A stretch of 64,000 nucleotides of DNA from Geminicoccaceae bacterium (GTDB taxonomy: Bacteria > Pseudomonadota > Alphaproteobacteria > Geminicoccales > Geminicoccaceae), in contig JANQPX010000009.1 of assembly GCA_028285265.1 (NCBI GenBank), positions 1-64,000 of the forward strand. Direction: 5' to 3'. A program made the position numbers and the translations under genes. Positions 1 to 15,393 of the stretch are shown one piece after another. Position 1 is the first letter of the stretch. Each line of letters starts with the position of its first letter. Under the pieces are notes generated by a model that saw nothing but the letters and a program-made list of their open reading frames with translations, was not told the DNA's origin and made no database searches.

Positions 1-1637
1 CCGACCACAGCCGCCTCTGAAACACTGGGATGCGCAACCAGGGCGCTCTCGACCTCGGCGGTGCCCATGCGGTGGCCGGACACATTGATGACATCATCGA
101 CACGACCGGTGATCCACCAGTAGCCGTCAGCATCACGTTTTGCCCCGTCGCCGGTGAAGTATCGGCCGGGGAAGGTCGAGAAGTAGGTCTGGATAAAGCG
201 CTCATGGTCGCCATAGACCGTGCGCATCTGGCCGGGCCAGCTGTCGGTGATGATCAGGTTGCCTTCGGTGGCACCCTCAAGGATCTTGCCGTCATTGTCG
301 ACAAGGGCAGGCTGAATGCCGAAGAACGGACGTGTCGCTGAGCCAGGTTTCAGCTCGGTCGCGCCGGGAAGCGGTGTGATCAGGATGCCGCCGGTCTCGG
401 TTTGCCACCAGGTGTCGACGATCGGGCAGCGGCCGTCGCCGACGACGTTGTAATACCAAAGCCACGCTTCAGGATTGATCGGCTCGCCGACCGACCCGAG
501 CGTGCGAAGCGAGGCCCTCGAGGTCGCTTTCACCGGCTCGTCACCAAGGCGCATCAACGCGCGGATCGCGGTGGGGGCGGTGTAAAAGATATTCACGCTG
601 TGTTTGTCGACGACCTGCCAGAACCGTGAGGCATCTGGATAGTTCGGCACCCCTTCGAACATCAGCGTGATTGCACCATTGGCCAGCGGGCCATAGACGA
701 TGTAGCTATGACCCGTGACCCAGCCGACATCGGCGGTACACCAATAAACGTCGCCGTCGTGATAATCGAAAACATATTGGTGGGTCATGGACGCATAAAC
801 GAGATAGCCGCCGGTGGTGTGCAGAACCCCCTTGGGCTTTCCGGTTGAACCTGAGGTGTAGAGGATAAAGAGGGGATCCTCGGCATTCATCGGCTCAGGC
901 GCGCAGTCGGCTGAGGCGGCGTCCATCAAGGCATAGGCATCGTAATCACGACCGGCGACCTCCGTGACATCGGTGCCGGCATATTTGAACATCAGGACTT
1001 TCACGCCATCCGGGCATTTCTCTAGCGCGGCATCGGTGTTGGGCTTCAAGGGAATGTTCCGTCCGCCGCGCTTGCCGCCATCGGTGGTGATCACCAGGTT
1101 GCTGTCGCAGTCCTTGATGCGATCGGCGAGACTGTCGGGTGAGAAGCCGCCAAAGACGATGGAGTGGACGGCGCCGACGCGGGCGCAAGCGAGCATGGCA
1201 AAGGCGGCTTCTGGGATCATCGGCATATAAAGAGTGACACGATCACCCTTCTTGACGCCGAGATCCTTCAAAACATTGGCGAGCCGACAGACTTTCTCAT
1301 GGAGCTCTTTATAGGTAATGGCGGCGTCCTGACTGGGCTCATCACCTTCCCAGAGGATCGCCGTCTGATCACCGCGGGTCGCCAGATGCCGATCGATGCA
1401 GTTGGCTGATACGTTGAGGACACCATCCTCATACCAGCGGATGCGTGCCCGGTCAGCATAGTCAACATCCTTGATTTTGGTCGGGAAGGTCACCCAATCC
1501 AAGCGCTTCGCCTGGTCCGCCCAGAACGCTTCAGGATCATCGATCGACTGTTGGTACATTTCCTCGTAGCGAGTCGCATTGATATGGGATGTTTTCGCGA
1601 ACGACGAAGGGACTGGGTAAAGGGTTTGGTCGGTCAT
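1..1637 (-). CDS. acs: Acetyl-CoA synthetase (3' end cut by window edge)
   Basis: Makes acetyl-CoA from acetate, ATP and CoA through an acetyl-adenylate in the cytoplasm. The start is the ATG ending at 1637; the protein opens [13 protein letters not shown] and contains [12 protein letters not shown], typical of the AcsA N-terminal domain. Near the left edge the reverse strand reads [20 protein letters not shown] followed by [20 protein letters not shown], the conserved AMP-forming ligase core and hinge. About 545 of the usual ~650 residues are present, so the C-terminal lid domain with its acetylatable lysine lies outside the window. An FNR/FixK-like box lies about 320 bp upstream. A CrbS-like symporter-kinase 9 kb away suggests an acetate-responsive locus. 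The identity is sure; the regulation is inferred. Confidence 0.95.
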
Positions 1638-1956
1638 CGTTTCGTTTTCCCCGAATTGACGTTTGGCGTTGGTTCTTGGGCGATCATTTGCCGAGAGCAT
1701 CAGGTTGTCTGATCGATGAATACCTTCGTTCATGAGCCCGATGATGTCCGCATCCACATTCAGCGATTTGACATGACGGCTCCTCGTTAGCCCGTCCTCG
1801 ACCTATCGGCATTTGCCCAGTTGATAGAGACAAAGATTATGAATGCTGCGATGCAACATAATTTCATGATACACAAAACAACTCCAGAAACAACAAGAAT
1901 TGTGCATTGCAGCAAAACAAATAGGTAAGTAGCCGTTGAATATTTTCTGTTGCAAT

Positions 1957-2160: not shown

Positions 2161-2823
2161 CTATGCTGTCATGGCCAATTTCATCTCTTCGATTTTGGCA
2201 ATGGCCGCCTCACGTGATGGAAACAAATCCGAGGTGCTACTGACATCGTCGTCACTTTCATTGTCAGCGCGCACGGCGTAACGCACCGTGCCTAGAGCGT
2301 GCGTCACGTTTATCCGTTTGCCGCGATGAGCAAAAGCAACCCAAGCCTCCGGCCAAACACTGCAGTCTTTAAAATTGACCAGGAAGTACCAATTGCGGCC
2401 GGTTTGATCGATGATCCACTCGATGACGTCATAGAATTCGTTGACGACTCGTGAGTTGCTGAACTCAAAGTCACTGAAGTCGAGCTCGATAATTTCATGA
2501 TTTTCAAGGACTTCAACACGATCCGCATAGACTCTGTATTGATCCGGTGTAAGACCAGAAGACGGAGAGAGCTCCCCGAGCTGTCCGGCGGCGTAGACCG
2601 CCTTGGCAAGATCGTCGACACTCTGCTCAAGCTTAGAGCAGCCCGTCAAAGCGGTTTTCAAGAATCGGTCGCGGTCGTCCTCCGAGAGTTCTGGAAAGTC
2701 TCTGAGAATCTCCAGAGCACCGCGAAGCGACGTCAAGGGCGAAACGAAGTCCTCCTCGACTTTGGTGCTGAGCGCCAGCGTGGAGAGAGCGCTAGACCGA
2801 TCTCTAGGCCATTCCTTGGGCAT
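2161..2823 (-). CDS. DHp-like helical hairpin fused to STAS-like domain; no phosphoacceptor His
   Basis: No named family can be assigned with certainty. Residues about 15-80 look like the dimerisation/phosphoacceptor helices of a histidine kinase (FVSPLTSLRGALEIL, then DDRDRF). They align without gaps to the H-box of the symporter-kinase at 10468-13140, but the phosphoacceptor His is Glu24. There is no catalytic ATPase domain. Residues about 88-195 (ELDFSDFEFSNSRVVNEFYD, then WPEAWVAFAHRG) look like a STAS-type fold. The start ATG ends at 2823, 29 bp after livF, so it is probably the last gene of the liv operon. It could act as a pseudo-phosphotransfer or anti-regulator protein tied to the acetate kinase; that is inference. 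Confidence 0.6.
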   Translation of the reverse strand: MPKEWPRDRSSALSTLALSTKVEEDFVSPLTSLRGALEILRDFPELSEDDRDRFLKTALTGCSKLEQSVDDLAKAVYAAGQLGELSPSSGLTPDQYRVYADRVEVLENHEIIELDFSDFEFSNSRVVNEFYDVIEWIIDQTGRNWYFLVNFKDCSVWPEAWVAFAHRGKRINVTHALGTVRYAVRADNESDDDVSSTSDLFPSREAAIAKIEEMKLAMTA

Positions 2824-2852
2824 AGGACGCGGTTTCCAATGGCTGCTATTCT

Positions 2853-3686
2853 CTAAATCGCCAGATATTGTTGACGCAGATCAGCGTCGTCGAGCACCTC
2901 CTGAGAAGTGCCATCGAACACGACCTGTCCCATGTCCAGGATAATGGCGCGGTCGGCGAGATGGAGAGCTGCGATTGCATTCTGCTCGACAATGATGGTG
3001 GTCATGCCAAGCGATTTGATCTGTTCTAGGGTTTTCTCGATTTCCTGCACGATCACCGGCGCGAGCCCTTCATAGGGCTCATCGAGCAGCAAGAGTTTAA
3101 CGTCGCGTGCGAGCGTTCGTCCGAGCGCTAACATTTGCTGCTCGCCGCCAGACAACGTCGTACCTTCCTGATTGCGGCGCTCGCCGAGCCTCGGAAACAG
3201 ATCGTAAATGCGGTCGATCGACCAGCCAACCGGCGGGGCGATTTGGGCGAGTTTGAGATTTTCCTCGACGGTCAGGCCTTGAATGATGCGTCGATCTTCC
3301 GGCACCAATCCGATGCCTGCTTGCGCCGCCTGATGGGCCTTCATTTCGTGGAGAGGCTTGTGATCAAGCCAGACTTCGCCTTGCCTAAGGGCCGGATCAT
3401 CAGCGCGAGCGATGGCGCGCAGTGTTGACGTCTTGCCGGCGCCATTGCGCCCAAGGAGGGCGACGATCTCGCCCTCGCGGACATCAAAGCTGACGCCCTG
3501 AACAATATAGCTTTCGCCATAATAGGCGTGGATATCCCAGCAGGAGAAATAAGCTGGCTGACCTCCAGCAGCAAGTGTGGGCTTCGTACCAGGCGCCTTG
3601 GCACCAGCAAGGGGATCGCCAAGCAGCTGGGTCGATCTTTGAGTCTCCGTATCCATCTTACCCTCTGTCTGGTTCAACGCGTTCAT
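2853..3686 (-). CDS. livF: Branched-chain amino-acid-type ABC transporter ATPase LivF
   Basis: One of two ATPases that energise the importer encoded by this operon, on the cytoplasmic face. Walker A is GRNGAGKT at residues 79-86, the ABC signature is LSGGEQQ, and Walker B is LLLLDEP. The family is usually about 235 residues; this protein is 277 because of a roughly 45-residue Pro/Ala-rich N-terminal extension. The start overlaps the livG stop by ATGA (3683-3686), so the two are translationally coupled. A shorter start at MDTETQ is possible but still leaves an extension. The family assignment is secure; the solute is not known from sequence. Confidence 0.9.
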   Translation of the reverse strand: MNALNQTEGKMDTETQRSTQLLGDPLAGAKAPGTKPTLAAGGQPAYFSCWDIHAYYGESYIVQGVSFDVREGEIVALLGRNGAGKTSTLRAIARADDPALRQGEVWLDHKPLHEMKAHQAAQAGIGLVPEDRRIIQGLTVEENLKLAQIAPPVGWSIDRIYDLFPRLGERRNQEGTTLSGGEQQMLALGRTLARDVKLLLLDEPYEGLAPVIVQEIEKTLEQIKSLGMTTIIVEQNAIAALHLADRAIILDMGQVVFDGTSQEVLDDADLRQQYLAI

Positions 3687-4438
3687 AGATGCGCTCCACC
3701 CAGATAAGCCTCTTGAACCTTGGGGTTGCCTTTGATCTTTTCCGGAAGGTCCTCAGCAATAACAGTGCCTTGCGCTAAGACAGAAATCTTGTCGGCGAGC
3801 GAGAACACGACGTGCATGTCATGCTCAATCACAACCATTGTGACGCCGGTCTCTGCGATGCGCTTCATCAACTCGATCGTATTGTTGGTATCGGCACGCG
3901 CCATGCCCGCCGTCGGTTCGTCGAGCAACAGAAGCTTAGGCTCTTGTACCAGGCACATAGCGAGTTCGAGCCGTCGCTTGTCGCCGCGTGACAGTTGAGC
4001 GGCGATGTCATGCGCCTTGGTATCGAGGCCGACATCGCTCAGCATCGTCATTGCCTTGGTATGGAGATCATTCTGACCGGAAACAGGATTCCAGGCATTC
4101 ATCGTGAATGATCCGTCACGCTTGGCAAACGCTGGGATCATGACGTTTTCGAGCAAGCTTAGGTCGCCGAAGATCTCCGGAGTCTGAAAAACCCGACTGA
4201 CTCCGGCTTGGTTGATCTCATGGGGTTTGATGCCGAGGAGAGACTTGCCATCAAAGGTAACATTGCCAGTGTCGGGCACGAGCCGCCCAACAAAGCAGTT
4301 TAAAAGGGTTGATTTGCCGGCGCCATTGGGACCGATGATGGCGTGTACCGTGCCCGCATCGACCTCGAGGTTGACGTTGTTCAGTGCCTTGAGGCCGCCA
4401 AAATTCTTATTGACGTTCTGAACTGAAAGGATGGTCAT
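3683..4438 (-). CDS. livG: Branched-chain amino-acid-type ABC transporter ATPase LivG
   Basis: The second ATPase of the Liv-type importer. Walker A is GPNGAGKS at residues 36-43. The signature region reads LSRGDKRRLE, with the LSxGD form common in LivG proteins, followed by Walker B LLLLDEPTAGM. Its length of 251 residues is normal. A G-rich ribosome site lies just before the ATG ending at 4438, 12 bp after livM, and the 3' end overlaps livF. Pairing with livF, livM, livH and a binding protein on one strand shows a complete five-part importer. Confidence 0.92.
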   Translation of the reverse strand: MTILSVQNVNKNFGGLKALNNVNLEVDAGTVHAIIGPNGAGKSTLLNCFVGRLVPDTGNVTFDGKSLLGIKPHEINQAGVSRVFQTPEIFGDLSLLENVMIPAFAKRDGSFTMNAWNPVSGQNDLHTKAMTMLSDVGLDTKAHDIAAQLSRGDKRRLELAMCLVQEPKLLLLDEPTAGMARADTNNTIELMKRIAETGVTMVVIEHDMHVVFSLADKISVLAQGTVIAEDLPEKIKGNPKVQEAYLGGAHL

Positions 4439-4450
4439 GGCATTCCCCCC

Positions 4451-5596
4451 TTAGGCAGTTGCAGGTTCGGCTGAGCCGCCGCTGCCGCCACCGAACCGGC
4501 CGACGAACCAGTTTCGCAATCTGTTGAAGCCTTCCATCAGCCCACCGGGTAGGAAGATAACGATCAGCATAAAGAGGGCGCCGAGCGTAAGATGCCATCC
4601 CTCACCGACGAACAGCGAGGACAGAGAAACGGCCGCATGCTGGAGCGTCTCCGGTAAAAAGTCGAAGAACCTCGTGAGGATTCCCTCGTTGAATGCTGAG
4701 AAGATGTTCTCGAAGTACTTGATGACACCGGCTCCGATAACAGGGCCAAGCAAGGTGCCCGCGCCACCAAGGATGGTCATCAACACAACTTCACCAGACG
4801 CGGTCCACTGCATCCGTTCAGCGCCGGCAAGCGGATCTGTAACCGCCATCAAACCGCCTGCTAGGCCCGCAAACATGCCTGAAATGACGAACGCCGCCAT
4901 AGCGTAAGGACGCGTGTTGAGGCCTGTGTAGTTCATGCGGTTCTGGTTGGATTTTACCGCGCGCAGCATCATGCCGAAGGGGGAGCGGAAGATCCGAAGT
5001 GTGATCAGAAAGCAGAGGATCAGGACCACTGCGCAGAAATAGAAGCCAGGATACCCAGTCATGGTGATGCCGAACAGGTCCGAAGAAGGCAGCACGGCGC
5101 CATAGTCACGACCGAACATCGTATCGAGAACCCGTGGGTCTGACTGGGCGAGCTGAAGTCCAGTCTCACCGTTGGTGATAGGCGTCAGCACTGAGTAAGC
5201 CAGATTGTAGCTCATCTGAGCGAAGGCCAGGGTCAAGATCGAGAAGTAAATGCCGGTTCGTCGCAACGAAATGAACCCGATGATGGTGGCGAACAACCCG
5301 CCAGCCAAAGTCGCCAGGATGATTGCTGGCACGGGGTTCATACTCAAAAGCTTGAACGTCCAGACGGCCGTGTAGGAGCCCACGCCGAGAAAAGCGGCAT
5401 GACCAAACGACAAATAACCGGTCAATCCAAAGAGAATGTTGAAGCCGAGCGCGAAGATCCCAAAGATCGCAAACTTCTGCAGCAAATCGGGATAGCCAGC
5501 GCCGATCGGAGCAAAGATGATCGGACCGGCGAGCACGACCGCAGTAAAGCAGGCGAACAGGATCAGGTCATTGCGGTTCATGGCGAATAGGCTCAT
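4451..5596 (-). CDS. livM: Liv-type ABC transporter permease LivM
   Basis: Inner-membrane permease of the importer, 381 residues with about ten hydrophobic segments. The early segment [20 protein letters not shown] is the LivM family motif, and [14 protein letters not shown] near residue 275 is the conserved cytoplasmic loop that meets the ATPase. The C-terminus is rich in Gly, Ser and Ala. The ATG ending at 5596 was chosen because a GGAG, overlapping the livH stop, lies about 9 bp upstream. It is cotranscribed with livH, which ends 6 bp before it. Confidence 0.92.
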
Positions 5597-5602
5597 GGCT
5601 CA

Positions 5603-6628
5603 CTACTCCATGACGCCCTTGCGACCCATCAGGCCGCGGGGGCGAACGAGAAGAATGACGACGGCAATCAAGTAGATGATGATCTGGTCGATGCCCGGGA
5701 AGATGTTCTTAACCTCATTCATGGAGGCAAAGCTCTGCAAGATACCGAGCAAGAACCCGGCAGCGACGGCACCGCCGAGCGAGCCCATGCCGCCGACCAC
5801 GACGACGACAAAGCTCAATACCAGAAAGTCCATGCCCATGTGGTAGTCGGGGCTAAGGATTGGCGTGTACATGACGCCGGCTAGACCGGCGACAACGGCA
5901 GCCAGTCCGAACACGATGGTGAAGCGTCGGTCAATGTCGATCCCAAGTAAGCCGACAGTCTCGCGATCGGCCATACCGGCACGCACCACCATGCCGAAGG
6001 TGGTGAACTGGAGAAAGGCGAAGACACCGCCGATGACGATTAGTGAGAACAGAAAGTAGATCAGGCGCCATGCGGGATAGACAACATTGCCGGCATTCAA
6101 ACCAATGGCGGCGCCAAAGTCGATCATGCCGCGCGCTACATCGGGCGCTGGTTGCGGTATCGGGTTGGCCCCATAGAAGCTTTTGATGATTTCCTGCAGA
6201 ACAATAGCCAGCCCAAACGTCACCAAAATTTGTTCGGCATGTGGACGCTTATAGAAGAAGCGGATAAGGCCGCGTTCCATCGCGATGCCGATAATCAGCA
6301 TTACCGGGATAGCGGCGAGAATGGAGACAGGCACGGAAAAATCGACCAGTGTCGCGCCAAAGTCGCCAAACCACGCTTCGACATAAGGCTCTCGAATCTC
6401 GCTCGGTGATCCCCATGCCGTCAGGTTTTCCTCATCTAAGGTCACTTTTTCCGCACTCAGCAGCGTCTTGATCGTGACAGCGCAGAAGGCGCCCAGCATA
6501 AACAGCGCGCCGTGGGCAAAATTGACGACACCAAGCGTGCCGAAAATAATGGTGAGGCCGAGGGCGATCAGCGCGTAAGCGCCGCCCTTGTCCAGACCAT
6601 TTAAGATCTGCAGCAGAATTGCGTCCAT
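5603..6628 (-). CDS. livH: Liv-type ABC transporter permease LivH
   Basis: Partner permease of LivM. It opens LNGLDKGGAYALIALGLTII and reads FGTLGVVNFAHGALFMLG, both typical of LivH, and has GGMGSLGGAVAAGFLLG as the ATPase-coupling loop near residue 280. The 341 residues exceed the usual ~300 because of an insert at about residues 55-90 (KVTLDEENLTAWGSP and after) between the first helices. Such an insert is seen in permeases of some urea- or amide-type Liv importers, so a solute other than leucine is plausible. A 74-bp gap with a strong hairpin separates it from the binding-protein gene. Confidence 0.9.
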   Translation of the reverse strand: MDAILLQILNGLDKGGAYALIALGLTIIFGTLGVVNFAHGALFMLGAFCAVTIKTLLSAEKVTLDEENLTAWGSPSEIREPYVEAWFGDFGATLVDFSVPVSILAAIPVMLIIGIAMERGLIRFFYKRPHAEQILVTFGLAIVLQEIIKSFYGANPIPQPAPDVARGMIDFGAAIGLNAGNVVYPAWRLIYFLFSLIVIGGVFAFLQFTTFGMVVRAGMADRETVGLLGIDIDRRFTIVFGLAAVVAGLAGVMYTPILSPDYHMGMDFLVLSFVVVVVGGMGSLGGAVAAGFLLGILQSFASMNEVKNIFPGIDQIIIYLIAVVILLVRPRGLMGRKGVME

Positions 6629-6653
6629 CGTGCCGGACCTATCGTGAGAAGCC

Positions 6654-6683
6654 GGCTACCCCCGGCCGAAACCGGGAGCAGCC
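6654..6683 (-). repeat. Hairpin between the binding-protein gene and livH
   Basis: The 74-bp spacer holds GGCT(6654-6657)/AGCC(6680-6683) around CCCGG(6661-6665)/CCGGG(6672-6676), a stable GC-rich stem-loop in the transcript. It has no following U-run, so it is unlikely to stop transcription fully. Such stem-loops after binding-protein genes commonly protect the upstream message and raise binding protein over permease. That role is inferred from position. Confidence 0.5.
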
Positions 6684-6702
6684 GTATTTGCAGGGAGGTT
6701 GA

Positions 6703-8037
6703 TTAGGCGCCGTCGTTGTACGGACCAAGTTCGCCGCCAAGCAAGTCAGCGGGGTACTCGACCTGGGAACGTGGCGTCACTTCGACTACCTCAAGGACGT
6801 CGAACTTCGAGTCAGGGTTTTCCTTACCCTTCACAACCAGCACATCCTTGAAGCACTGGTGATCCTCGGCACGGTACTCGGTTGGACCGTTGCCAAGTCC
6901 ATCGAAGGTGAAGCCTTCAAGCGCTGCGCCGACCTCAGACGGACGGAACGTTCCGGCACGCTGACAGGCATCGGCATAAAGAAGAGCCTGGCAGTAGCAG
7001 GTGTGCGCAGCCTGGCTTGGTGGGAAGCCATATTTCTGGCCAAACGACTTGACGAACGCCTTGGAGCCCTCGTCTTGCAATGACCAGTGCCAGTTGGTCG
7101 ACCCGAAGATGCCTTTAACGTTCTCGCCAGCACCCTGAGCCATCAGACGACTGTAGAGCGGAACAACGACAGCAAAGTCTTTGCCGTTGGCCTGTTTGTC
7201 ACGAAGGCCGAACTGGACCGCTTGGGTCAGCGAGTTGACCATATCGCGGCCATAGTGGTTCAACACGAGAACATCGGCATCCGAGTTGAGCACGGGCGTG
7301 ATGTATTGCGAGAAGTCACCAGCGCCGAGCGGTGTGCGGACGGCCGCTTCGGTCTGCCATCCAAGCTCCTCGGTATACTTCTTGATCGAGCCTTCCTGCG
7401 ACCAACCCCAGTTGTAATCGGCCGTCAGATGGTACGCGACACGATCTTCACCAAATGCATTCTTCAGCACGGGGGCAAGAGCAGCACCCGACATCTCGGT
7501 GTTGAAGAAGTGCCGGAAACCATTGGCGCGCTTGTCTTTGCCAGTGGTATCGTTCGAGTGCGTAAGGCCGGCCATGAAAATGACGCCGACTTCTTGGCAA
7601 AGACCCTGAACAGCGACCGCAACACCGGATGACGACCCGCCGGTGATCATCACTGCGCCGTCTTTTTCAATCATACGCTTGGCGCTGGCACGCGCAGCAT
7701 CGGACTTCGTCTGGGTGTCGCCCGTTACGAACTCGACCTTCTTTCCGTTAATACCGTCGCCTTTAAGCTCCTTCGAGGAGAAGGTGTTGAGCATACCGCC
7801 GTCACCTTCACCATTGATGTGCTCAACGGCCAGCTCATAAGCGCGCAGCTCATCGGCGCCCTCGTCGGCATAAGCCCCGGTCTGCGGGACATTAAAGCCG
7901 AGGATCACGGAGCCGCCCGTTGGCTCGTTGGTGTAAGCCCACGATTTCTTGGTAAAGATCATCGGTGCTGCAAGAGCTGCACCGCCCAACGCTGTTCCCT
8001 TAAGGACAGTGCGGCGGGTGATATCCAATTTGCTCAT
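6703..8037 (-). CDS. Periplasmic solute-binding protein of the Liv-type importer, Tat-exported
   Basis: Binds the solute in the periplasm and delivers it to LivHM. The N-terminus holds a twin-arginine signal (ITRRTVLKG, Arg8-Arg9) followed by an Ala/Gly-rich core, so export folded through Tat is likely. The mature part reads VILGFNVPQTGAYADEGADE, the type I periplasmic-fold opening of amide/branched-chain binding proteins. An AAAGGAGAG ribosome site lies before the ATG ending at 8037; a TTG 21 bp upstream would lie in the ribosome site and is not the start. Length is 444 residues, longer than typical LivK (~370). The ligand is unknown; the neighbouring acs makes a short-chain acid or amide attractive but unproven. 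Confidence 0.88.
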   Translation of the reverse strand: MSKLDITRRTVLKGTALGGAALAAPMIFTKKSWAYTNEPTGGSVILGFNVPQTGAYADEGADELRAYELAVEHINGEGDGGMLNTFSSKELKGDGINGKKVEFVTGDTQTKSDAARASAKRMIEKDGAVMITGGSSSGVAVAVQGLCQEVGVIFMAGLTHSNDTTGKDKRANGFRHFFNTEMSGAALAPVLKNAFGEDRVAYHLTADYNWGWSQEGSIKKYTEELGWQTEAAVRTPLGAGDFSQYITPVLNSDADVLVLNHYGRDMVNSLTQAVQFGLRDKQANGKDFAVVVPLYSRLMAQGAGENVKGIFGSTNWHWSLQDEGSKAFVKSFGQKYGFPPSQAAHTCYCQALLYADACQRAGTFRPSEVGAALEGFTFDGLGNGPTEYRAEDHQCFKDVLVVKGKENPDSKFDVLEVVEVTPRSQVEYPADLLGGELGPYNDGA

Positions 8038-8231
8038 TACTAAGCCTCTCCTTTTCAAGCGTTCTTCGCTAGATCTCAGCGATCCAAGCCAAAGGCAGGC
8101 GTCTTTAGCGCCATAACCCTTAAAGCTCCGGACGAACTCGTCCTGAGCTGACGATGAGCTTATCCTGTTAATCAGTCAATAAGTAATTGACTTTATTGAA
8201 ATTATTTGTCATAAGATTTGCATCAATAAAA

Positions 8232-8255
8232 ACAAATTTGTAAATTATTTACAAA
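8232..8255. promoter_or_regulatory. Palindromic operator in the divergent liv/XRE promoter region
   Basis: Two overlapping palindromes sit in a very AT-rich stretch: ACAAATTTGT (8232-8241) and TTTGTAAA-TTA-TTTACAAA (8237-8255, an 8-bp inverted repeat with a 3-bp spacer). They lie 41 bp before the TTG start of the XRE regulator and about 195 bp from the binding-protein start. RamB/ScfR-type regulators are known to bind TTTGCAAA-like sites, so this is a likely self-regulated operator controlling both directions. That last step is inference. Confidence 0.55.
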
Positions 8256-8295
8256 ATCTTTTAGCGAACCTAGGGAGCGACAAGGAGACTCTGCG

Positions 8296-9690
8296 TTGCC
8301 GGACACCATCGTCGGAACCCGGATACGACAACGCCGGCGCGAGATGGGCATGACACAGGCTGATCTGGCGAAGGTCGTCGGCATTTCCGCATCCTACCTC
8401 AATCTCATCGAGTGGAACAAACGTCGGATCGCCGGCGGCCGCTTGAACAAGATCGCTGACGCGCTGAAGATTTCGCCCGATGATTTGGCAGGTTCTTCAG
8501 AGCGTCGTCTCTTGGAGGTCTTGACGGAAATCGCCCACCTTCCATCCCTTCGGACACTCGGCATTGAGACCGGTCGGACGAGCGAGTTGATCGCCCGCTT
8601 TCCCGGTTGGGCGAAAGGCTTGGCCGCTTTGGTACGCTCCGAACGCGAAGCGGTGGCCCATGCGCAAACCTTGTCTGACCGTCTGTCCAATGATCCGTTT
8701 TTGAGCGAGACGGTGCACCGGATGCTCTCGCGTATTGCTGCGATACGCTCGGCTGCCGATATCTTGACCGAATATCCCACTCTTTCCGCTGAACGTCGTG
8801 GTCGCTTCGACCGCATGATTCACGATGAAAGCCTCGCCTTATCAGAAGTTGCTGAAGCCCTTGCGAGCTATTTGGATAAAGCGGAAGATGCGGACCGCGT
8901 TCTGACGCCGCTCGACGAAGTGGAAGCGCTGTTCGAGGCTCGTGACAACCACTTCGGCGAAATCGAGGCCGTCGCAGACGCTCTTCCCTATGCGCCCAGC
9001 GATGCGCGGCCGATCTCCCGTCGCCTCAAGGCCCGGAGCCTCGTTGAGGAACATATCAGCGACCTGATCGACGACTTGATTGCCAATCAGCCTCAAATCA
9101 AGACAGCTGCGGCACGCCGTCGTGCCCATCAAGCACTGTTCGAATATGCCATCGGCGCAATTCTGATGCCGATGACAGCGTTTGCCGAGCGTGCGGCGGT
9201 ACTTCGCTACGACATTGAGGCCTTAGCAGAAGCGTTCTCGGTCGAAGTTGAGGCAGTCTGTCATCGTTTGACTGCTCTGCCAGAGGGCAAGGATGTGCCG
9301 CGTTTTGGTTACTTTTGCGCGAACGCTGCGGGAACCATTATTGAAAAGCTCGGATTGGAGGGATTGGCCCTGCCGCGCTACGCAGCCGCCTGCCCTCTTT
9401 GGGTGCTCTATCGTGCACAGCAATCGCCAGAGGCTGCGATCCGGCAACGCGCCCTGTTCCCTTCAGGCGCTCGCTTCGTCTTCGTTGCCCGAGCAAGGCA
9501 CCAGGGAGCGACTGGGTTCGGAAAGCCTCGCCACTACATTACGGACATGATAGCGATGAAGGAAGGGGAGGCACGGCACACCGTCTACGCACCAGATGTA
9601 TCGGCACCGGTAGAGGAAGTCGGCCCTGCTTGCCGTCTCTGTACCCGCCGGACATGCCGACATCGGGTGGAAGACCCGCTGGCGGCCTAG
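8296..9690 (+). CDS. XRE-family regulator of ScfR/RamB type with degenerate IrrE-like domain and DHp-like insert
   Basis: Likely transcription factor for short-chain acid use. Residues about 5-60 form the HTH (MTQADLAKVVGISASYLNLI). The C-terminus has the family hallmark ACPLWVLYR and a Cys cluster CRLCTRRTCRHR. The middle region near residues 260-310 (LFEYAIGAILMPMTAFAERA) resembles the IrrE/ImmA peptidase-like domain, but the metal-binding HExxH is not present. Unusually, residues 135-195 (FLSETVHRMLSRIAAIRSA) align without gaps to the H-box helices of the kinase at 10468-13140, keeping His141. The start is TTG at 8296 with AAGGAG 8 bp upstream. It is divergent from the liv genes. Confidence 0.8.
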   Translation: MPDTIVGTRIRQRRREMGMTQADLAKVVGISASYLNLIEWNKRRIAGGRLNKIADALKISPDDLAGSSERRLLEVLTEIAHLPSLRTLGIETGRTSELIARFPGWAKGLAALVRSEREAVAHAQTLSDRLSNDPFLSETVHRMLSRIAAIRSAADILTEYPTLSAERRGRFDRMIHDESLALSEVAEALASYLDKAEDADRVLTPLDEVEALFEARDNHFGEIEAVADALPYAPSDARPISRRLKARSLVEEHISDLIDDLIANQPQIKTAAARRRAHQALFEYAIGAILMPMTAFAERAAVLRYDIEALAEAFSVEVEAVCHRLTALPEGKDVPRFGYFCANAAGTIIEKLGLEGLALPRYAAACPLWVLYRAQQSPEAAIRQRALFPSGARFVFVARARHQGATGFGKPRHYITDMIAMKEGEARHTVYAPDVSAPVEEVGPACRLCTRRTCRHRVEDPLAA

Positions 9691-9805
9691 TCGATGGTCA
9701 AGCTATAAGCAAGATGCCCAAGATTGCAGCAGCGTGCTTTGTAAGGTCTAATAGAGAGACCGAAGCCATGCACAAGTGGGCGTCAGGGAGAGGAATTCGA
9801 GTGTC

Positions 9806-10186
9806 ATGACCAAACGGGTGCTCCTGGCCGAAGACGAGCCGAACATTGTGGAGTCACTGACCTTCCTTTTGGAGCGGGCAGGTTTTGCAGTGACGGTGGA
9901 AACCAATGGACGAAAGGCGCTGAACGCAGCGCTTGATGATCAACCCGACGTCCTCTTTCTCGACGTCATGTTGCCGGAGCTGGATGGCTATGAAGTCCTT
10001 CGCCAACTACGAGCAGATCGACGGACTGAGAAACTTCCGGTTGTGATGTTAACCGCTAAAGGACAGCGCGAGGATCGCGAGACCGCGCTGGCATGCGGTG
10101 CTGACCTCTTTATCAAAAAGCCATTCGCCAACTCTGAAATCATTGCGGCAGTCAAACAACTCATCAACGAAGGCTCTGATGCTTAG
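9806..10186 (+). CDS. Single-domain response regulator (receiver only)
   Basis: 126 residues make one receiver domain and nothing else. The acid pocket is around Glu9-Asp10-Glu11, the phosphoacceptor is Asp53 (FLDVMLPELDGYE), the switch Thr lies in VVMLTAKG, and the conserved Lys105-Pro106 closes the domain. It has no DNA-binding output, so it must act by phosphotransfer or by protein contact. It lies between the XRE regulator and the symporter-kinase on the same strand, so it is the expected partner of that kinase. ATG at 9806 was chosen over an upstream in-frame ATG because homology begins at MTKRVLL. Confidence 0.9.
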   Translation: MTKRVLLAEDEPNIVESLTFLLERAGFAVTVETNGRKALNAALDDQPDVLFLDVMLPELDGYEVLRQLRADRRTEKLPVVMLTAKGQREDRETALACGADLFIKKPFANSEIIAAVKQLINEGSDA

Positions 10187-10204
10187 ACAAAAGGAGCATC
10201 CTTA

Positions 10205-10468
10205 ATGGATCGCGCCGAGCTCCAGCTGTTGCGACGTAAGGTGCGTGATCGATCGATCGCGCTGGCGCTCGTTGGCACGGTGCTTTTGATGCCGCCGGTC
10301 GTCGGCGCCTCCCTCGTCGATGGGAGCATTGGAGGCATCCCTGCCCCCTTCCTTTATGTCTTCGTTGTTTGGATTGGATTGATTGTTGGTGCTGCAATTC
10401 TTGCAAGACCGCTTCTCGACACGGAGGAAACCCCGTCATCGACGGCGCTCCCTAATCCAGACAGCTAA
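10205..10468 (+). CDS. Small two-helix membrane protein coupled to the symporter-kinase
   Basis: 87 residues: a basic N-terminus (LRRKVRDRS), one hydrophobic helix (IALALVGTVLLMPPVVGA), a short loop, a second helix (FLYVFVVWIGLIVGAAILA) and a polar tail. AAGGAG lies 8 bp before the ATG, and the stop overlaps the kinase start as TAATG, so expression is coupled one to one. Small two-helix proteins of the DUF485 (YjcH) and DUF4212 families are encoded just upstream of SSS transporters such as ActP; this protein has the same layout but I cannot place it in either family from sequence alone. Confidence 0.75.
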   Translation: MDRAELQLLRRKVRDRSIALALVGTVLLMPPVVGASLVDGSIGGIPAPFLYVFVVWIGLIVGAAILARPLLDTEETPSSTALPNPDS

Positions 10469-13140
10469 TGCTTTCCCTCAACATACTCCTTGCAGTCTGT
10501 CTCGGCTATGTCGCGCTCTTGTTTTTGGTTGCGTTTGTTGTCGACCGTCGGGCGCGCCGGGCACCCATCCAACTTCTCCACTCTCCCGTCGTCTACACGC
10601 TATCAATTTCGGTCTATTGCACGTCTTGGACATTTTATGGTGCCGTCGGGTCGGCGGCGCGCAATGGACTTGAGTTCATCACCATCTATCTCGGACCGAC
10701 GCTCGTGTTTGTTGGTTGGTGGTGGCTACTTCGAAAACTAGTCCGTATTGGTCGGGTACACAGAATTACCTCGATCGCAGATCTGATCTCGTCCCGCTAC
10801 GGCAAGAGCACAAGCCTGGCCGTGCTAGTGACTATCATCGCGGTGATTGCAACAACGCCTTATATCGCCCTTCAACTGCAGTCAGTGACGCGGAGCTATC
10901 AGGTCATCGCGGGCGGTGTCGACGAAGTGACGACCGCCTTTTGGATTGCCGCCGGCATGGCGTTGTTTACGATCTTGTTCGGCACTCGAAATCTTGACGC
11001 CAACGAACGCCATCACGGCGTCGTTGCCGCAATTGCCCTCGAGGCCATCGTCAAACTCTTCGCTCTCATCGCTGTTGGCGTTTTTGCCACCTATGGGCTC
11101 GCTAACGGCTTTAGTGATGTCTTCGCCAATGTCTCTGATGAAGACATCCGAGGGGCTGGCGACATTTTTGGCGCGCGCTGGGCTGTGCTGACATTCCTGT
11201 CAGCAACAGCCATCATCTGCCTTCCAAGGCAGTTTCAGGTCACTGTGGTCGAGAATATCGAGGAACGCCAATTAGCGACGGCTTCATGGCTGTTTCCACT
11301 CTATCTGCTGGGGATGACGGCCTTCATTATGCCGATTGCCCTCGTTGGGCAACAAGTCCTGCCCCAAGGCGCCAATCCCGATCTCTACGTCCTGACTCTT
11401 CCCCTGACGGCACAGCGCCATGAACTCGCACTGCTCGCCTTTCTCGGGGGCTTTTCCTCCGCGACCTCCATGGTCATCGTTGCTGCGATTGCGGTCTCAA
11501 CGATGGTGTCCAACCATATCGTTATGCCGGTAGCACTGAGACTGCTGGCCGCCAGCAATGCTGTCAGTGGGGACGTTCGAAGCATCGTCCTCACATCTCG
11601 CCGCATCAGCATCGGCGTCGTTCTCGGTCTCGGGTTCCTCTATTTTTACGCCAGCGGTGGATCCGATGCACTCGCCGCGATCGGACTGATCGCCTTTGTC
11701 GGTGTGGCGCAGTTCTTGCCGAGCTTGCTCGGCGGCATTTTTTGGCGCGGTGCCACACGTGCAGGGGCCCTAAGTGGACTCGTAGTCGGTTTCGCGCTTT
11801 GGGCTTACACCTTGTTCTTGCCAAGCTTCGGCGGTGATCTGATTCTCAGTGCCAATGCTTTGAGTGTTGGGCCTTGGGGCTTAGAGGTTCTCCGCCCACA
11901 ATCGCTTTTCGGGCTTCAGGAGTTCGATCCTCTCGTACATGCCGTCGTCTGGAGCATCGGGGCCAATACCCTCACCTTTGTTATGGTTTCTAGTCTCACT
12001 CAGCCTGGTGAGCTCGAACGACTTCAAGGGGCATTGTTTGTTGACGTCGATGTCGACCGATCAGCCGGCGGCGCGCTATCCGGCTTTTCTTCAAGCTCCG
12101 CGAACTCGGAAGATCTCTTTGTGCTTGCGCAACGAATTCTCGGAACGGAACCAGCACGACGCCTTTTCGACGAGATGGCAAGGGCTCAAGGCACAGCCAA
12201 AGGACTGCCGCATGCGACCGACGTGGTCATTGCCAGGCTGGAACGCGAACTTGCGGGCTCGATAGGCGCGGTTTCGGCGCATGCCATGGTGACCAGTATC
12301 GCCGGGCGCCAGACTGTTGGCATTACGGAGCTGATTGATATCGCTGATGAGACTCAGGAACTAATCGAAACATCCAGGCAGCTCGCGCAAAAATCAAACG
12401 AGCTGGAGCGTGCGGCAAAGCAACTTCGCCAGGCAAACGAGCGTCTCCGAGCTTTGGATGCGCAAAAGGATGCGTTTCTAAGCCAAGTCAGCCACGAACT
12501 CAGAACACCGATGACGTCGATTAGATCGTTTTCGGAAATTCTGGTCGACGACGCCGAACTTACCGGTGACGAACGACAACGCTTTGTCTCGATCATTCAC
12601 GAGGAATGCATTCGTCTGACCCGCCTTCTCGACGAACTCCTGGATATTAACCGACTGGAGTCTGGCACCACTGAACTCAGTGTCGAGCCGATCGACGTGA
12701 ATAGCGCGGTCGCTGCAGCGCTGGACACGATTTCCGGGCTCACCAAGAGCGCAGGCGTCATGGTGAAAACCTCCCCTGCCCCTGATGAACTTTCAATCCG
12801 CGCGAATGAAGATCGGCTTCGTCAGGTTCTCATTAATGTTCTGTCCAACGCGGTGAAGTACAATGACTCCGGCAAGCCGGAAATCGAGGTGCGCACAGGG
12901 TTGCGGCATCATGCAGTGCATATCGACGTCATCGACAATGGCGGTGGTGTAACTCGCGACGATGCAACGATGGTTTTTGACAAATTTGCTCGTGGCAACC
13001 GTTCTGACCGGAGTCAGGGTGCCGGGCTCGGTCTTCCAATCAGCCGGGCAATCATGCGCGCTATGCAGGGTGATCTTACCGTCGAGTTCGCTGCCGATGG
13101 CACCAGCTTCTTCCGCCTTACTATGCCACAGAATAGTTAG
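10468..13140 (+). CDS. Sodium:solute-symporter/histidine kinase fusion (CbrA/CrbS-like)
   Basis: 890 residues. Residues 1 to about 500 form an SLC5/SSS transporter-like domain with about 13 helices, the sensor and perhaps a real transporter. Residues about 545-640 are a linker that matches the STAC domain position known in CbrA. A coiled coil (LERAAKQLRQANERLRALDA) leads to the H-box SQVSHELRTPMTSIRS with phosphoacceptor His676. The ATPase domain has the N-box (LINVLSNAVKYND), G1 (VIDNGGG), F-box (FDKFARG) and G2 (GAGLGLPIS). CrbS of Vibrio and Pseudomonas has this plan and controls acs in response to acetate; acs is 9 kb away here. The usual DNA-binding partner CrbR is absent; a receiver-only protein sits beside it instead. 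Confidence 0.9.
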   Translation: MLSLNILLAVCLGYVALLFLVAFVVDRRARRAPIQLLHSPVVYTLSISVYCTSWTFYGAVGSAARNGLEFITIYLGPTLVFVGWWWLLRKLVRIGRVHRITSIADLISSRYGKSTSLAVLVTIIAVIATTPYIALQLQSVTRSYQVIAGGVDEVTTAFWIAAGMALFTILFGTRNLDANERHHGVVAAIALEAIVKLFALIAVGVFATYGLANGFSDVFANVSDEDIRGAGDIFGARWAVLTFLSATAIICLPRQFQVTVVENIEERQLATASWLFPLYLLGMTAFIMPIALVGQQVLPQGANPDLYVLTLPLTAQRHELALLAFLGGFSSATSMVIVAAIAVSTMVSNHIVMPVALRLLAASNAVSGDVRSIVLTSRRISIGVVLGLGFLYFYASGGSDALAAIGLIAFVGVAQFLPSLLGGIFWRGATRAGALSGLVVGFALWAYTLFLPSFGGDLILSANALSVGPWGLEVLRPQSLFGLQEFDPLVHAVVWSIGANTLTFVMVSSLTQPGELERLQGALFVDVDVDRSAGGALSGFSSSSANSEDLFVLAQRILGTEPARRLFDEMARAQGTAKGLPHATDVVIARLERELAGSIGAVSAHAMVTSIAGRQTVGITELIDIADETQELIETSRQLAQKSNELERAAKQLRQANERLRALDAQKDAFLSQVSHELRTPMTSIRSFSEILVDDAELTGDERQRFVSIIHEECIRLTRLLDELLDINRLESGTTELSVEPIDVNSAVAAALDTISGLTKSAGVMVKTSPAPDELSIRANEDRLRQVLINVLSNAVKYNDSGKPEIEVRTGLRHHAVHIDVIDNGGGVTRDDATMVFDKFARGNRSDRSQGAGLGLPISRAIMRAMQGDLTVEFAADGTSFFRLTMPQNS

Positions 13141-13374
13141 AGCACAGTTGTTTCTCCGCGGAGGTTTCCGTTCTGAGCCTGAGCACGCGTCCTGATAGCT
13201 GATGGTGCACTTCTGACGAGTGGTCGCCGACAAGCTGCGTCCTCATATTATCGGAAGCGGCCAATACTCAACGAGTATCTGTCTTCGAATTACCGGAACA
13301 TGATCCCCGTAAGGTGCCTGCACACCAGGTGGATCAATGAGCTGCCGACGCTTTGGGACTGATGAGGGGGTGTC

Positions 13375-14136
13375 ATGATCGACTTCGAAGGGGAACGCGT
13401 CGTGATTACCGGTGCCGGAGGAGGCGTTGGCCAAGCATTGGTCGAGGTCTTTTCCAACTTTGGTGCCGCTGTCGTTGCCTGCGACCTACCTGGTGCTGAC
13501 ATCTCTGAGGGCCATGTTGCAGAGATGTATCGCTTTGACCTTATGGATGAGCAGGCACTCGATGACACGACGTTGCACATCTTGCATCGCGGTGCACCCT
13601 GCGCAGTGATATCAAATGCTGGCTATACACATGCTGAGACCCTGGACGATGTGACCGTGGCCGCGCTGGATAGGGAAATGGCGGTGAATTTCGAACGTGC
13701 TGCGCGCTTTTCGAAAGCGTTTGTCCCAGCCATGCGCAGTCGGTCCAAAGGCGCTGCTTTTGTTTTTATTTCCTCGGTCAATGCCGCCGTTCACTTCGGC
13801 AATCCCGCCTACGCGGCGGCCAAGGCGGCACTCCAAGCCTGGATGCGCGCAATTGCGACAGAGGAAGGAAAGCATGGCATCCGCGCAAACGCCATCGTAC
13901 CAGGGTCTATCAACACGCCCGCTTGGAAGCATCGGCTTGCGGAGAAACCATCAATTGTTGAGGCCGTCGGCCGTCTCTACCCGCTGGGCCGGCTGGTGGA
14001 GCCAGTGGAGGTTGCTCATACTGCTGCCTTTCTCGCCTCGCCGTTCGCTAGCGGCATCACCGGCGCCTCCATTCCAGTGGACGCTGGTATCAGCGCCGGT
14101 AATCTGCCCTTTCTCGATCAGATAGCCGGCAGCTGA
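13375..14136 (+). CDS. Short-chain dehydrogenase/reductase
   Basis: A 253-residue classical SDR using NAD(P)H. The cofactor loop is TGAGGGVGQAL near residue 12, followed by CDLPGAD where an Asp suggests NAD preference, then SNAGYTHAETL in place of NNAG, the catalytic Ser in FISSVNAAV, and YAAAKAAL with the catalytic Tyr and Lys. The C-terminus ends in the usual ITGASIPVDAG. Only 26 bp separate it from the next gene, so the two are probably cotranscribed. The substrate cannot be read from sequence. Confidence 0.88.
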   Translation: MIDFEGERVVITGAGGGVGQALVEVFSNFGAAVVACDLPGADISEGHVAEMYRFDLMDEQALDDTTLHILHRGAPCAVISNAGYTHAETLDDVTVAALDREMAVNFERAARFSKAFVPAMRSRSKGAAFVFISSVNAAVHFGNPAYAAAKAALQAWMRAIATEEGKHGIRANAIVPGSINTPAWKHRLAEKPSIVEAVGRLYPLGRLVEPVEVAHTAAFLASPFASGITGASIPVDAGISAGNLPFLDQIAGS

Positions 14137-14162
14137 GCATGGAAACACAAGGAGCCGATAAC

Positions 14163-14651
14163 GTGCAGTTCGATAAAAACCCATTCCCCGTTAGCGATGC
14201 TGATCGACATGCACTTTGGGAAATGCTCGTGCGCCGTGACATTGACGCCTTTCTCGCTCAGGACTGGTCGATGGTCGAAAACGACTTCATTGCCGAGAAT
14301 TTCTTCGGAATGCATGCCCATTTGCTCGATGATGCCGATGCCTGGCGACTGCAGTTCCCGAGACTTGAGGTTTATCGGGACGAATGGCTGCGTCAGGCAA
14401 AAGAGACGGCAGCCGTAAGTTTCGACGAGCCGCTTCGCCCTGCACTCTTCCGCATCACCAACTTGCGCGACATCGATGTCGATGGTGACCGTGCTGTTCT
14501 GCACAAGAAATTCAATGGAGTCATCGCCAAGCAAGGTGGCGACCAGCACCTTCGCTGGCAGACACTCTATTTCTGCCAACGCGTTGAGGGTGTCTGGAAG
14601 ATCTTAGGCTTCGTAGGCTACATGCCCAACCCTTTGAGGCAATCATCATAA
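14163..14651 (+). CDS. NTF2-like (SnoaL/DUF4440-type) protein
   Basis: About 162 residues with an alpha+beta cone layout: an N-terminal helix (LWEMLVRRDIDAFLAQDW), a long helix around WRLQFPRLEVYRDEWL, and beta strands DIDVDGDRAVLHKKF and WKILGFVGYMP. The family includes small isomerases, cyclases and ligand-binding proteins; no catalytic set is clear. GTG at 14163 is preferred as start because AAGGAG lies 8 bp upstream; an ATG at 14139 has no ribosome site. It follows the SDR closely, suggesting that both act on one substrate. Confidence 0.65.
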   Translation: MQFDKNPFPVSDADRHALWEMLVRRDIDAFLAQDWSMVENDFIAENFFGMHAHLLDDADAWRLQFPRLEVYRDEWLRQAKETAAVSFDEPLRPALFRITNLRDIDVDGDRAVLHKKFNGVIAKQGGDQHLRWQTLYFCQRVEGVWKILGFVGYMPNPLRQSS

Positions 14652-14694
14652 CCCGGCAATTCAACAAAATTGGTTGCTGTGGCAGATACAAGTG

Positions 14695-14719
14695 GTGAAA
14701 TTTTTATTGATTTTTTCAC
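14695..14719. promoter_or_regulatory. Inverted repeat upstream of the XRE-cupin regulator
   Basis: GTGAAA (14695-14700) and TTTCAC (14714-14719) form an inverted repeat in a T-rich stretch, and the palindrome TTCATGAA follows about 12 bp downstream. All lie within 75 bp before the XRE-cupin regulator start, so an autoregulatory operator is plausible. The half-sites are short and this could be chance. Confidence 0.3.
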
Positions 14720-14767
14720 GAGTATGATGCTTCATGAAATTCCTCGCTGTTCATTTCTCGGTTTGTC

Positions 14768-15373
14768 ATGGGTATTGCTGGTCCTAAGAAAACGCGCCAG
14801 AAGGCTGATCCTGTCGACGACGGTGAGTGGGCTGTTGGCGCCGATATTCGCGCACTGCGTAAGAGGCGTTCCATAACGTTAACCGAGCTGGCAAGCCATC
14901 TTGGCCGTTCTGTAGGATTTGTCAGCCAGATCGAACGCGGATTATCCGAGCCCTCGATCAATGACCTGCGCAAAATCGCTGAGGCGTTCGATGTGCCCCT
15001 CAGCTTCCTGTTCGGCAAAAATCGCGGCGATCCGCAGGAAACGCGCTATGTTGTCCGCGCTCATGCACGGCGTCGTCTCGGCAACGCTGAAGGCGGCTTG
15101 ATTGAAGAACTCTTGTCGCCCGATCTTAGTGGTTCCTTCGAAATTCTGAGAAGCGAATTCGCGGCCAATTCGGCGCTTGAGAAACCGATCCTGCGCAACA
15201 CCGAAGAAGCTGGTTTCGTCGTATCCGGCACGCTGGAGATCGCCATCGGCGGCAAGTGGCATGTCCTGGAAGCCGGCGATTCATTCAGATTTGCTGGTGA
15301 GCCCTACTGTTGGCGCAATCCAGGAAACCAGCCCGCCATTGTCATCTGGGTCATCGCCCCACCAACCTACTAA
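14768..15373 (+). CDS. XRE-cupin transcriptional regulator
   Basis: 201 residues. Residues about 25-85 are an HTH (ITLTELASHLGRSVGFVSQI, then ERGLSEPSINDLRKIAEA), and residues about 125-195 are a cupin barrel (GFVSGTLEI-like strands, VLEAGDSFRFAGEPYCWRN). This is the plan of PuuR- and SutR-like regulators, in which the cupin senses a small amine, acid or sulfur ligand. It sits 20 bp before the first FAD/GcvT dehydrogenase and is probably the switch for that operon. Confidence 0.9.
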   Translation: MGIAGPKKTRQKADPVDDGEWAVGADIRALRKRRSITLTELASHLGRSVGFVSQIERGLSEPSINDLRKIAEAFDVPLSFLFGKNRGDPQETRYVVRAHARRRLGNAEGGLIEELLSPDLSGSFEILRSEFAANSALEKPILRNTEEAGFVVSGTLEIAIGGKWHVLEAGDSFRFAGEPYCWRNPGNQPAIVIWVIAPPTY

Positions 15374-15393
15374 GATCAAGAGGAAGAACCGTC

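Follow-up and report, generated by a model that had tools for sequence, protein, structure and literature searches.

A transporter-like histidine kinase, a stand-alone receiver and an ScfR-family regulator with a DHp-like domain at an alphaproteobacterial transporter locus

In the CbrX–CbrA–CbrB system of Pseudomonas, CbrX binds the SLC5 domain of the histidine kinase CbrA, the Na2 site of CbrA is filled by Lys196, and CbrB is a receiver-AAA-HTH regulator, as passages of PMC13022988 describe. The kinases of the CrbS/R and RpuS/R systems appear in parts of PMC9100948 as hybrids with PAS and receiver domains that are paired with LuxR-type regulators, and the same text already places the action of CrbS/R in an alphaproteobacterium. 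PrpR, of the ScfR/IsaR family of regulators, carries a CX2CX4C motif and one upstream cysteine (passages of PMC6765138). Here, we describe a locus of a Geminicoccaceae bacterium (assembly GCA_028285265.1, contig JANQPX010000009.1, positions 1 to 64,000, called the window below) that encodes an SLC5-STAC histidine kinase, a receiver-only protein and an ScfR-family regulator on the plus strand between 8296 and 13140. An earlier note on this DNA had read these genes as a CrbS-like acetate kinase in which the usual partner CrbR is replaced by a receiver next to a RamB/ScfR-type XRE regulator, with acs in the same locus. We consider a different reading fairly probable from the sequence evidence, namely that the signal of the kinase would pass through the receiver to a DHp-like domain inside the ScfR regulator and so to the control of transporter genes and acs.

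All three open reading frames (ORFs) and their domains were confirmed (Table 1). The regulator matched the ScfR model PF09856 with 76.5 bits (cut-off 24), and the HTH_3 and M78 models were also matched. Against the RamB equivalog it reached 171 bits, far below the cut-off of 700, and of the RamB/ScfR assignment the ScfR half therefore stands while the RamB identity was rejected. The protein consists of an HTH domain (residues 1-65), a DHp-like domain (128-195), a remnant of the M78 part, which is shortened here, and the ScfR C-terminal domain. Its model has the PrpR fold (Z 27.1, root-mean-square deviation 2.6, 260 aligned), and Cys366, Cys446, Cys449 and Cys454, which make up CX2CX4C and one upstream cysteine, are each conserved in 104-105 of 106 sequences. 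The alignments used for relatives held chosen rows (24 in A1 for the kinase and 71 in A4 for the regulator); in A4, PF09856 was found in 70 proteins and HTH_3 in all 71.

The DHp-like domain is the part that would tie the regulator to the kinase. A search with the window kinase sequence matched the ScfR gene directly (E 3e-5). For the comparison of profiles, 105 ScfR domains were set against 132 kinase DHp domains in hhalign, which gave 99.4% (E 3.5e-21) over 60 ungapped columns with histidine on histidine. In a search of the bacterium's own genome, the ScfR-DHp profile scored 101 bits with itself, 66.5 with the kinase of the same locus, 36.2 with another kinase, 30.2 with a 220-residue protein encoded beside acs, and at most 21.5 with the rest. 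The nearest match of the domain in the genome is the DHp domain of the same-locus kinase; the next closest DHp, that of the other kinase, lies on contig C43 at 9223-9411. The profile also found HK853 in the PDB (E 2e-5). Staphylococcal protein A ranked above HK853 through weak repeat matches, each with an i-Evalue of at least 18, and this match was taken as chance. AlphaFold predicted a helical hairpin of helices 134-159 and 165-198, with pLDDT values of 79-96 over the block 131-190. Foldseek and a second structural comparison, both run with the whole 464-residue model, found no histidine kinase among the 50 matches listed, which does not in itself exclude the fold; Foldseek returned PrpR and HTH folds. 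The DHp assignment is thus drawn from the sequence profiles together with the predicted hairpin.

No residue of the N-terminal helix is conserved as well as the histidine, which is kept in 103 of 109 ScfR domains; this count adds four ScfR genes that are truncated at the ends of their loci (L087, L088, L091 and L093) to the 106-row alignment and excludes one ScfR that has no DHp-like domain and is not adjacent to the kinase (L204). Threonine, serine or asparagine stands at +4 from the histidine in 105 of 106 domains. Meanwhile, the glutamate following the histidine is present in only 58 of 106 ScfR domains versus 103 of 103 paired kinases, and the arginine and proline of HELRTP are almost always lost. 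Such losses fit a domain that would have no need to serve an ATPase domain. Twelve of 12 control ScfRs lacked the DHp-like domain, and seven other tested ScfRs contained it. In a domain tree whose rows were thinned by identity, the ScfR DHp-like domains (n = 60) formed one clade (support 100/98) placed, with weak support (54/63), next to the non-hybrid kinase class described below, suggesting that the domain was captured once, probably from that kinase lineage. The arrangement suggests that a membrane signal may take an uncommon path to a gene switch, through a built-in copy of the kinase's own DHp domain. Searches of open-licence PMC papers listed none in which a DHp domain is described for an ScfR or XRE regulator.

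The distribution of the domain follows that of the kinase. The SLC5-STAC region was matched in 89 of 385 alphaproteobacterial genomes, and 93 loci of 20 kb were taken from these; no such locus was obtained for G229 and G064, where the search had given only weak or fragmentary matches (E about 1e-14), and the second match in G335 was to the same broken gene. The kinases fall into two classes. Non-hybrid kinases of 885-1073 residues, present in 53 of the 385 genomes and also in many Rhodobacteraceae, stand with a small ORF and a receiver-only gene, joined in most cases by an ScfR gene. Hybrid kinases of 1100-1317 residues (40 loci) mostly have a LuxR-sized regulator beside them. One kinase fragment (L139) was assigned to neither class. 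The locus L080 (8375-11403 and 7538-8200) has a non-hybrid kinase, a receiver-only gene, a small ORF and a downstream LuxR-type regulator, and is a possible intermediate between the classes. Hybrid kinases also occur in six of the 53 non-hybrid genomes versus 5.4 expected by chance (53 x 39/385), so that the two classes are independent rather than alternatives. Mutual exclusion of the two was thus sought and not found, and the proposal that CrbR had been replaced was not borne out.

The whole-genome search found an ScfR with the DHp-like domain in 44 of the 53 genomes with a non-hybrid kinase and in 0 of 331 others (Fisher 3e-49, with shared descent not removed). The 44 are full-length matches at E 1.9e-91 or better; G064, which holds an ScfR-DHp fragment and a kinase fragment, was excluded from both sides of the count. 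Ordinary ScfRs match the query only over its C-terminal part, and the weaker near-full matches (the second copy in G379, G326 and G012) have no DHp-like domain. Full-length matches were confined to the non-hybrid class in a phylum-wide sample of 398 genomes as well. The locus was also seen on records labelled Enemella evansiae (L188) and as a metagenome-assembled genome of 'Gammaproteobacteria' (L140), which are probably contamination or mislabelled bins.

In the kinase itself, Pfam (E ≤ 0.01) recognised only HisKA and HATPase_c, at residues 667-888; no SSF match, PAS domain or fused receiver was found by these models, which were silent on the first 660 residues. A profile of 24 relatives, meanwhile, matched 10ed_A across profile positions 5-619 with E 8e-112, as did the single window sequence over residues 3-456 with E 4e-71, which bears out the SSS-STAC plan proposed earlier. 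The chain 10ed_A is a solved histidine kinase fragment of 606 residues, and the same entry holds a 58-residue chain X; judging by the chain lengths and names, we identify 10ed with the SLC5-STAC structure of CbrXA in PMC13022988. Lys196 of the window kinase aligns with Lys196 of CbrA and is invariant in the 24 relatives, making it likely that the transport cycle of the kinase is proton-coupled rather than sodium-coupled. A small two-helix ORF sits at the kinase start in 125 of the 133 loci of the non-hybrid class. Among PDB entries, its family matches CbrX (10ed_X) best, but the match is weak in itself (E 0.015).

The receiver domain (PF00072, 98 bits) spans residues 5-117 of the 126-residue protein and is followed by no output domain, in agreement with the receiver-only partner seen in the earlier note; an alternative, longer GTG start lies at 9776. 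A receiver-only gene lies at most 3 kb upstream of the kinase, on the same strand, in 126 of the 133 loci, and the upstream receiver has no more than 50 residues after Lys105 in these 126. The aspartate and lysine are kept in 126 of 126, with a median of 19 residues after Lys105. By this count, the gene order goes far beyond chance. It recurs in relatives, and the earlier note, which had named a lack of recurrence as grounds for refutation, passes its own test in this respect. No CbrB-type receiver-AAA-HTH protein was found among the annotated genes of 2161-20279.

The most constant neighbour of the kinase class is a divergent ATP-binding cassette (ABC) transporter operon: its substrate-binding protein is encoded divergently upstream in 80 of the 133 loci, and in 77 of the 119 that have at least 6.5 kb upstream. 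In six inspected loci where the ScfR gene stands apart from the kinase, it lies beside the ABC operon in all six. The small membrane ORF, the DHp-like domain and this operon as the main constant neighbour were overlooked in the earlier note. Its placement of acs in the same locus was correct: acs closes a separate minus-strand operon, after the ABC transporter genes and 8.7 kb from the kinase, and scored 872 bits with TIGR02188 (cut-off 725), reaching position 533 of 629. With strong scores, acs was found in 24 of the 133 loci, the window included; in six of them the order is acs–receiver–X–kinase in one direction, and transporter genes precede acs in five. It should be noted that the contig begins inside acs and that its bases 1-99 recur identically at the ends of both C75 and C76. 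These two contigs are about 10% different from one another, and the contamination of the assembly is put at 6.95%; there may be two versions of acs or two strains. No substrate could be assigned to the ABC transporter: urea-binding-protein models gave 54-57 bits, far below their cut-off of about 494, and a literature search on acetate uptake in roseobacters offered nothing specific.

The divergent promoter region of the window contains TTTGTAAA at 8237-8244 and an inverted copy at 8248-8255. One of TTTGTAAA, TTTACAAA or TTTGCAAA, the last of which we take to be the box of ScfR regulators, is present in 53 of 77 divergent regions versus 3.9 (at most 10) in shuffles. The box density is 2.85 per kb in the divergent regions versus 0.027 elsewhere in the same loci, and nine of 207 AT-matched control windows contained a box. 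Direct copies with at most one mismatch stand exactly 32 bp apart in 33 of the 77 regions. For the RamB site of Paracoccus, passages of PMC10370305 give an 80-bp fragment with ends of 17 bp and, inside it, two boxes that an 18-bp spacer separates, from which boxes of 14 bp, 32 bp apart from start to start, can be worked out. The window genome has one ScfR protein only, which makes this regulator the natural candidate for binding the boxes. A plasmid search with the ScfR protein gave only relatives below 60% identity, and an Rfam scan of window positions 1-22000 gave no match.

Further proteins with DHp-like stretches were found. In the window, the 220-residue protein is a candidate for a further DHp-like client of the receiver. 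Its model is of low confidence (pLDDT 60), and the STAS-like reading of its alpha/beta domain is for this reason just a guess; a relative of it directly adjoins the kinase in the locus L140. In seven of the nine non-hybrid genomes that have no ScfR-DHp (loci L089, L090, L092, L095, L098, L099 and L100), a DnaQ-like exonuclease is encoded between the receiver and the small ORF or kinase; it also occurs in L078, L083 and L085. The assignment was made with Pfam RNase_T in five of five tested (L089, L090, L095, L098 and L100) and by similarity in L092 and L099. Its DHp-like stretch scores 14.8-26.4 bits, and a PAS domain is present in some. Of the remaining two genomes, L080 has the LuxR-type regulator downstream, and in L086 the receiver ends a 573-residue protein.

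In the mechanism that we propose, the transporter-like kinase would sense a solute or its transport, and its small partner protein would probably contact the SLC5 part in the way that CbrX contacts that of CbrA. Phosphorylation of the stand-alone receiver by the kinase would follow, which is a standard step. The receiver would then act on the ScfR regulator through the DHp-like domain, most likely by handing the phosphoryl group on to His141 and possibly by docking alone. This step is suggested by the domain itself, its conserved histidine, its nearest relation to the kinase and the co-occurrence of the two. Acyl-CoA sensing is probably retained in the regulator, as the four family cysteines are kept; with the acyl-CoA and [4Fe4S] machinery of its family probably kept, the protein could merge an internal acyl-CoA signal with the signal from the membrane. 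It would bind the TTTGTAAA boxes in the divergent promoter and control both its own operon and the ABC operon, at the end of which acs stands here and in some other genomes. A bolder version, which we hold only tentatively, is a phosphorelay in whose last step a stand-alone receiver would phosphorylate the DHp histidine of a DNA-binding protein, and in which one receiver may serve several DHp-like clients. These clients, captured from the kinase lineage, may be the acyl-CoA-sensing transcription factor, the PAS-DHp-DnaQ exonuclease and the protein with DHp and STAS-like parts. Such a last step would reverse the usual output, in which the receiver is joined to a DNA-binding domain.

Several observations weigh against the proposed path. 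The histidine is replaced by phenylalanine in five ScfRs of one lineage (L087, L088, L091, L093 and L219) and by asparagine in L194, and phosphotransfer to the ScfR histidine therefore cannot be universal. The histidine is also missing from the DHp-like stretch of the exonuclease (8/8 aligned) and from the 220-residue protein, which has glutamate (E24) at this site. Pfam HisKA reports only two of 71 ScfR domains at E ≤ 0.01 and had no match in the window regulator. Nine of the 53 non-hybrid genomes have no ScfR-DHp, and acs lies upstream in only 15 of the 65 loci whose flank reaches 9.3 kb or more. In the window promoter, the box exactly 32 bp upstream is a degenerate TTTGTCAT (8205-8212) with two mismatches. 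Moreover, because most of the compared relatives are Rhodobacteraceae, the rows are not independent.

We regard transfer to His141 as the first choice and docking without phosphotransfer as its main rival. In the docking case, the phosphorylated receiver would bind the DHp-like domain and alter the dimer or the DNA binding of the ScfR regulator, and the histidine would be a part of the interface. The His-less proteins, which include one whole ScfR lineage (5/5), make this credible. It also accords with the positions that set kinase–receiver specificity, which we take to be those at +8, +11, +15, +34 and +37 in HK853: over 103 pairs, ScfR and kinase agree better at these sites (mean identity 0.48) than over the remainder of the domain (0.29). 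However, docking alone does not call for so well conserved a histidine, and the residue at +4 is kept as well, and we judge the docking explanation rather unlikely. In HisKA domains, phosphatase residues are found at +4, and the conservation of this position would also suit a domain that acts as a phosphatase or sink, by which the acyl-CoA state feeds back on a receiver with its real target elsewhere; receivers in loci without an ScfR do need other targets. No other target recurs across the 133 loci, however, and the neighbour of the receiver, the ScfR protein, is itself a DNA-binding output and the promoter contains boxes of its type, so that a phosphatase role seems quite improbable.

The idea of a rewired CrbS switch, in which the XRE regulator would take the signal from kinase and receiver and turn on acs in place of CrbR, draws on the presence of acs in the locus here and in some related loci, six of which have it in one direction with the receiver and kinase. 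Against it, the architecture is not that of CrbS, coexistence with hybrid kinases does not depart from chance, and linkage to the ABC transporter is more frequent than linkage to acs; we find this explanation improbable. Least credible of all is that the DHp-like helices are a mere dimerisation coiled coil with a chance likeness, and that the neighbouring genes encode independent regulators. Helical hairpins are common and Pfam HisKA is mostly silent, but such a chance would have to account for the hhalign result, the ranking in the genome, the HK853 match, the lack of the domain in the controls, the single clade and the near-invariant histidine. The path from the kinase through the receiver to the ScfR regulator remains the reading that we prefer. 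If it is true, a receiver without an output domain would control transcription via a DHp-like domain inside a transcription factor, and extracellular sensing by a transporter-like kinase would be joined to intracellular acyl-CoA sensing in one regulator. The kinase class occurs in 53 of the 385 genomes sampled, and regulators of the Pden_1785 type, together with these ABC transporters, gain a testable context.

Table 1. Features of the locus in window coordinates
Feature	Position	Strand	Basis or remarks
acs (acetate-CoA ligase)	3..1757	-	TIGR02188; 3' end on another contig
220-residue protein	2161..2823	-	HisKA E 5e-5; DHp-like helical hairpin, then alpha/beta domain
ABC transporter, branched-chain amino acid/urea type	2853..6628	-	Pfam ABC_tran, BPD_transp_2
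ABC transporter ATPases (n = 2)	2853-3686, 3683-4438	-	Pfam ABC_tran
ABC transporter permeases (n = 2)	4451-5596, 5603-6628	-	Pfam BPD_transp_2
ABC transporter substrate-binding protein	6703..8040	-	Peripla_BP_6, 228 bits
Promoter-region boxes	8205..8255		Read from sequence
ScfR-family XRE regulator, 464 residues, TTG start	8296..9690	+	PF09856, HTH_3, M78
DHp-like domain within the ScfR regulator	8677..8880	+	Residues 128-195; His141 codon 8716-8718
Receiver-only response regulator, 126 residues	9806..10186	+	PF00072; Asp53 codon 9962-9964
CbrX-like two-helix membrane protein, 87 residues	10205..10468	+	Stop overlaps kinase start (TAATG)
SLC5-STAC-DHp-CA histidine kinase, 890 residues	10468..13140	+	His676 codon 12493-12495; Lys196 codon 11053-11055

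Downstream of the kinase, the region 13375-20279 encodes an SDR dehydrogenase, the product of a small, possibly NTF2-like ORF, an XRE regulator and two GcvT/sarcosine-dehydrogenase-like proteins. These genes are hardly conserved beside the kinase in relatives.

Compared with known systems, the locus resembles CbrX–CbrA–CbrB in an SLC5-STAC part that can be aligned nearly end to end, in the lysine at the Na2 site and in the two-helix ORF overlapping the kinase start. It differs in that no PAS domain was found by Pfam in the kinase and in that the partner is a receiver-only protein with an ScfR regulator instead of a CbrB-type protein. The CrbS/R and RpuS/R systems of Vibrio, Pseudomonas and Sinorhizobium share the SLC5-STAC kinase and control acetate or pyruvate genes, and the window has acs nearby; membership in CrbS/R is nevertheless ruled out by the architecture, as the kinase is non-hybrid, without PAS or fused receiver, and its partner is not of the LuxR type. 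The name CrbS-like is thus not appropriate for what is a separate non-hybrid class with a CbrX-like partner. With the ScfR/IsaR regulators (RamB, PccR, MccR and PrpR), the window protein shares the HTH domain, the PrpR fold and the cysteine pattern, and with RamB of Paracoccus the 32-bp box spacing, but unlike them it has a DHp-like insert between the HTH domain and the core. By fold and motif it is an ScfR family member and not RamB, and the system is an SLC5-STAC system and not CrbS/R. In phosphorelays such as those of Spo0F–Spo0B and ChpT, a lone receiver works together with a phosphotransferase of the DHp type. To judge by sequence, the window has the same elements, a receiver with an intact aspartate and a DHp-like histidine domain that has no ATPase domain, although here this domain is attached to a DNA-binding protein. 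The nearest printed hint of such an arrangement that we came across, in passages of PMC10370305, is Pden_1785 of Paracoccus denitrificans, which is encoded beside a two-component system; the present locus itself is carried by Paracoccus beibuensis (L213).

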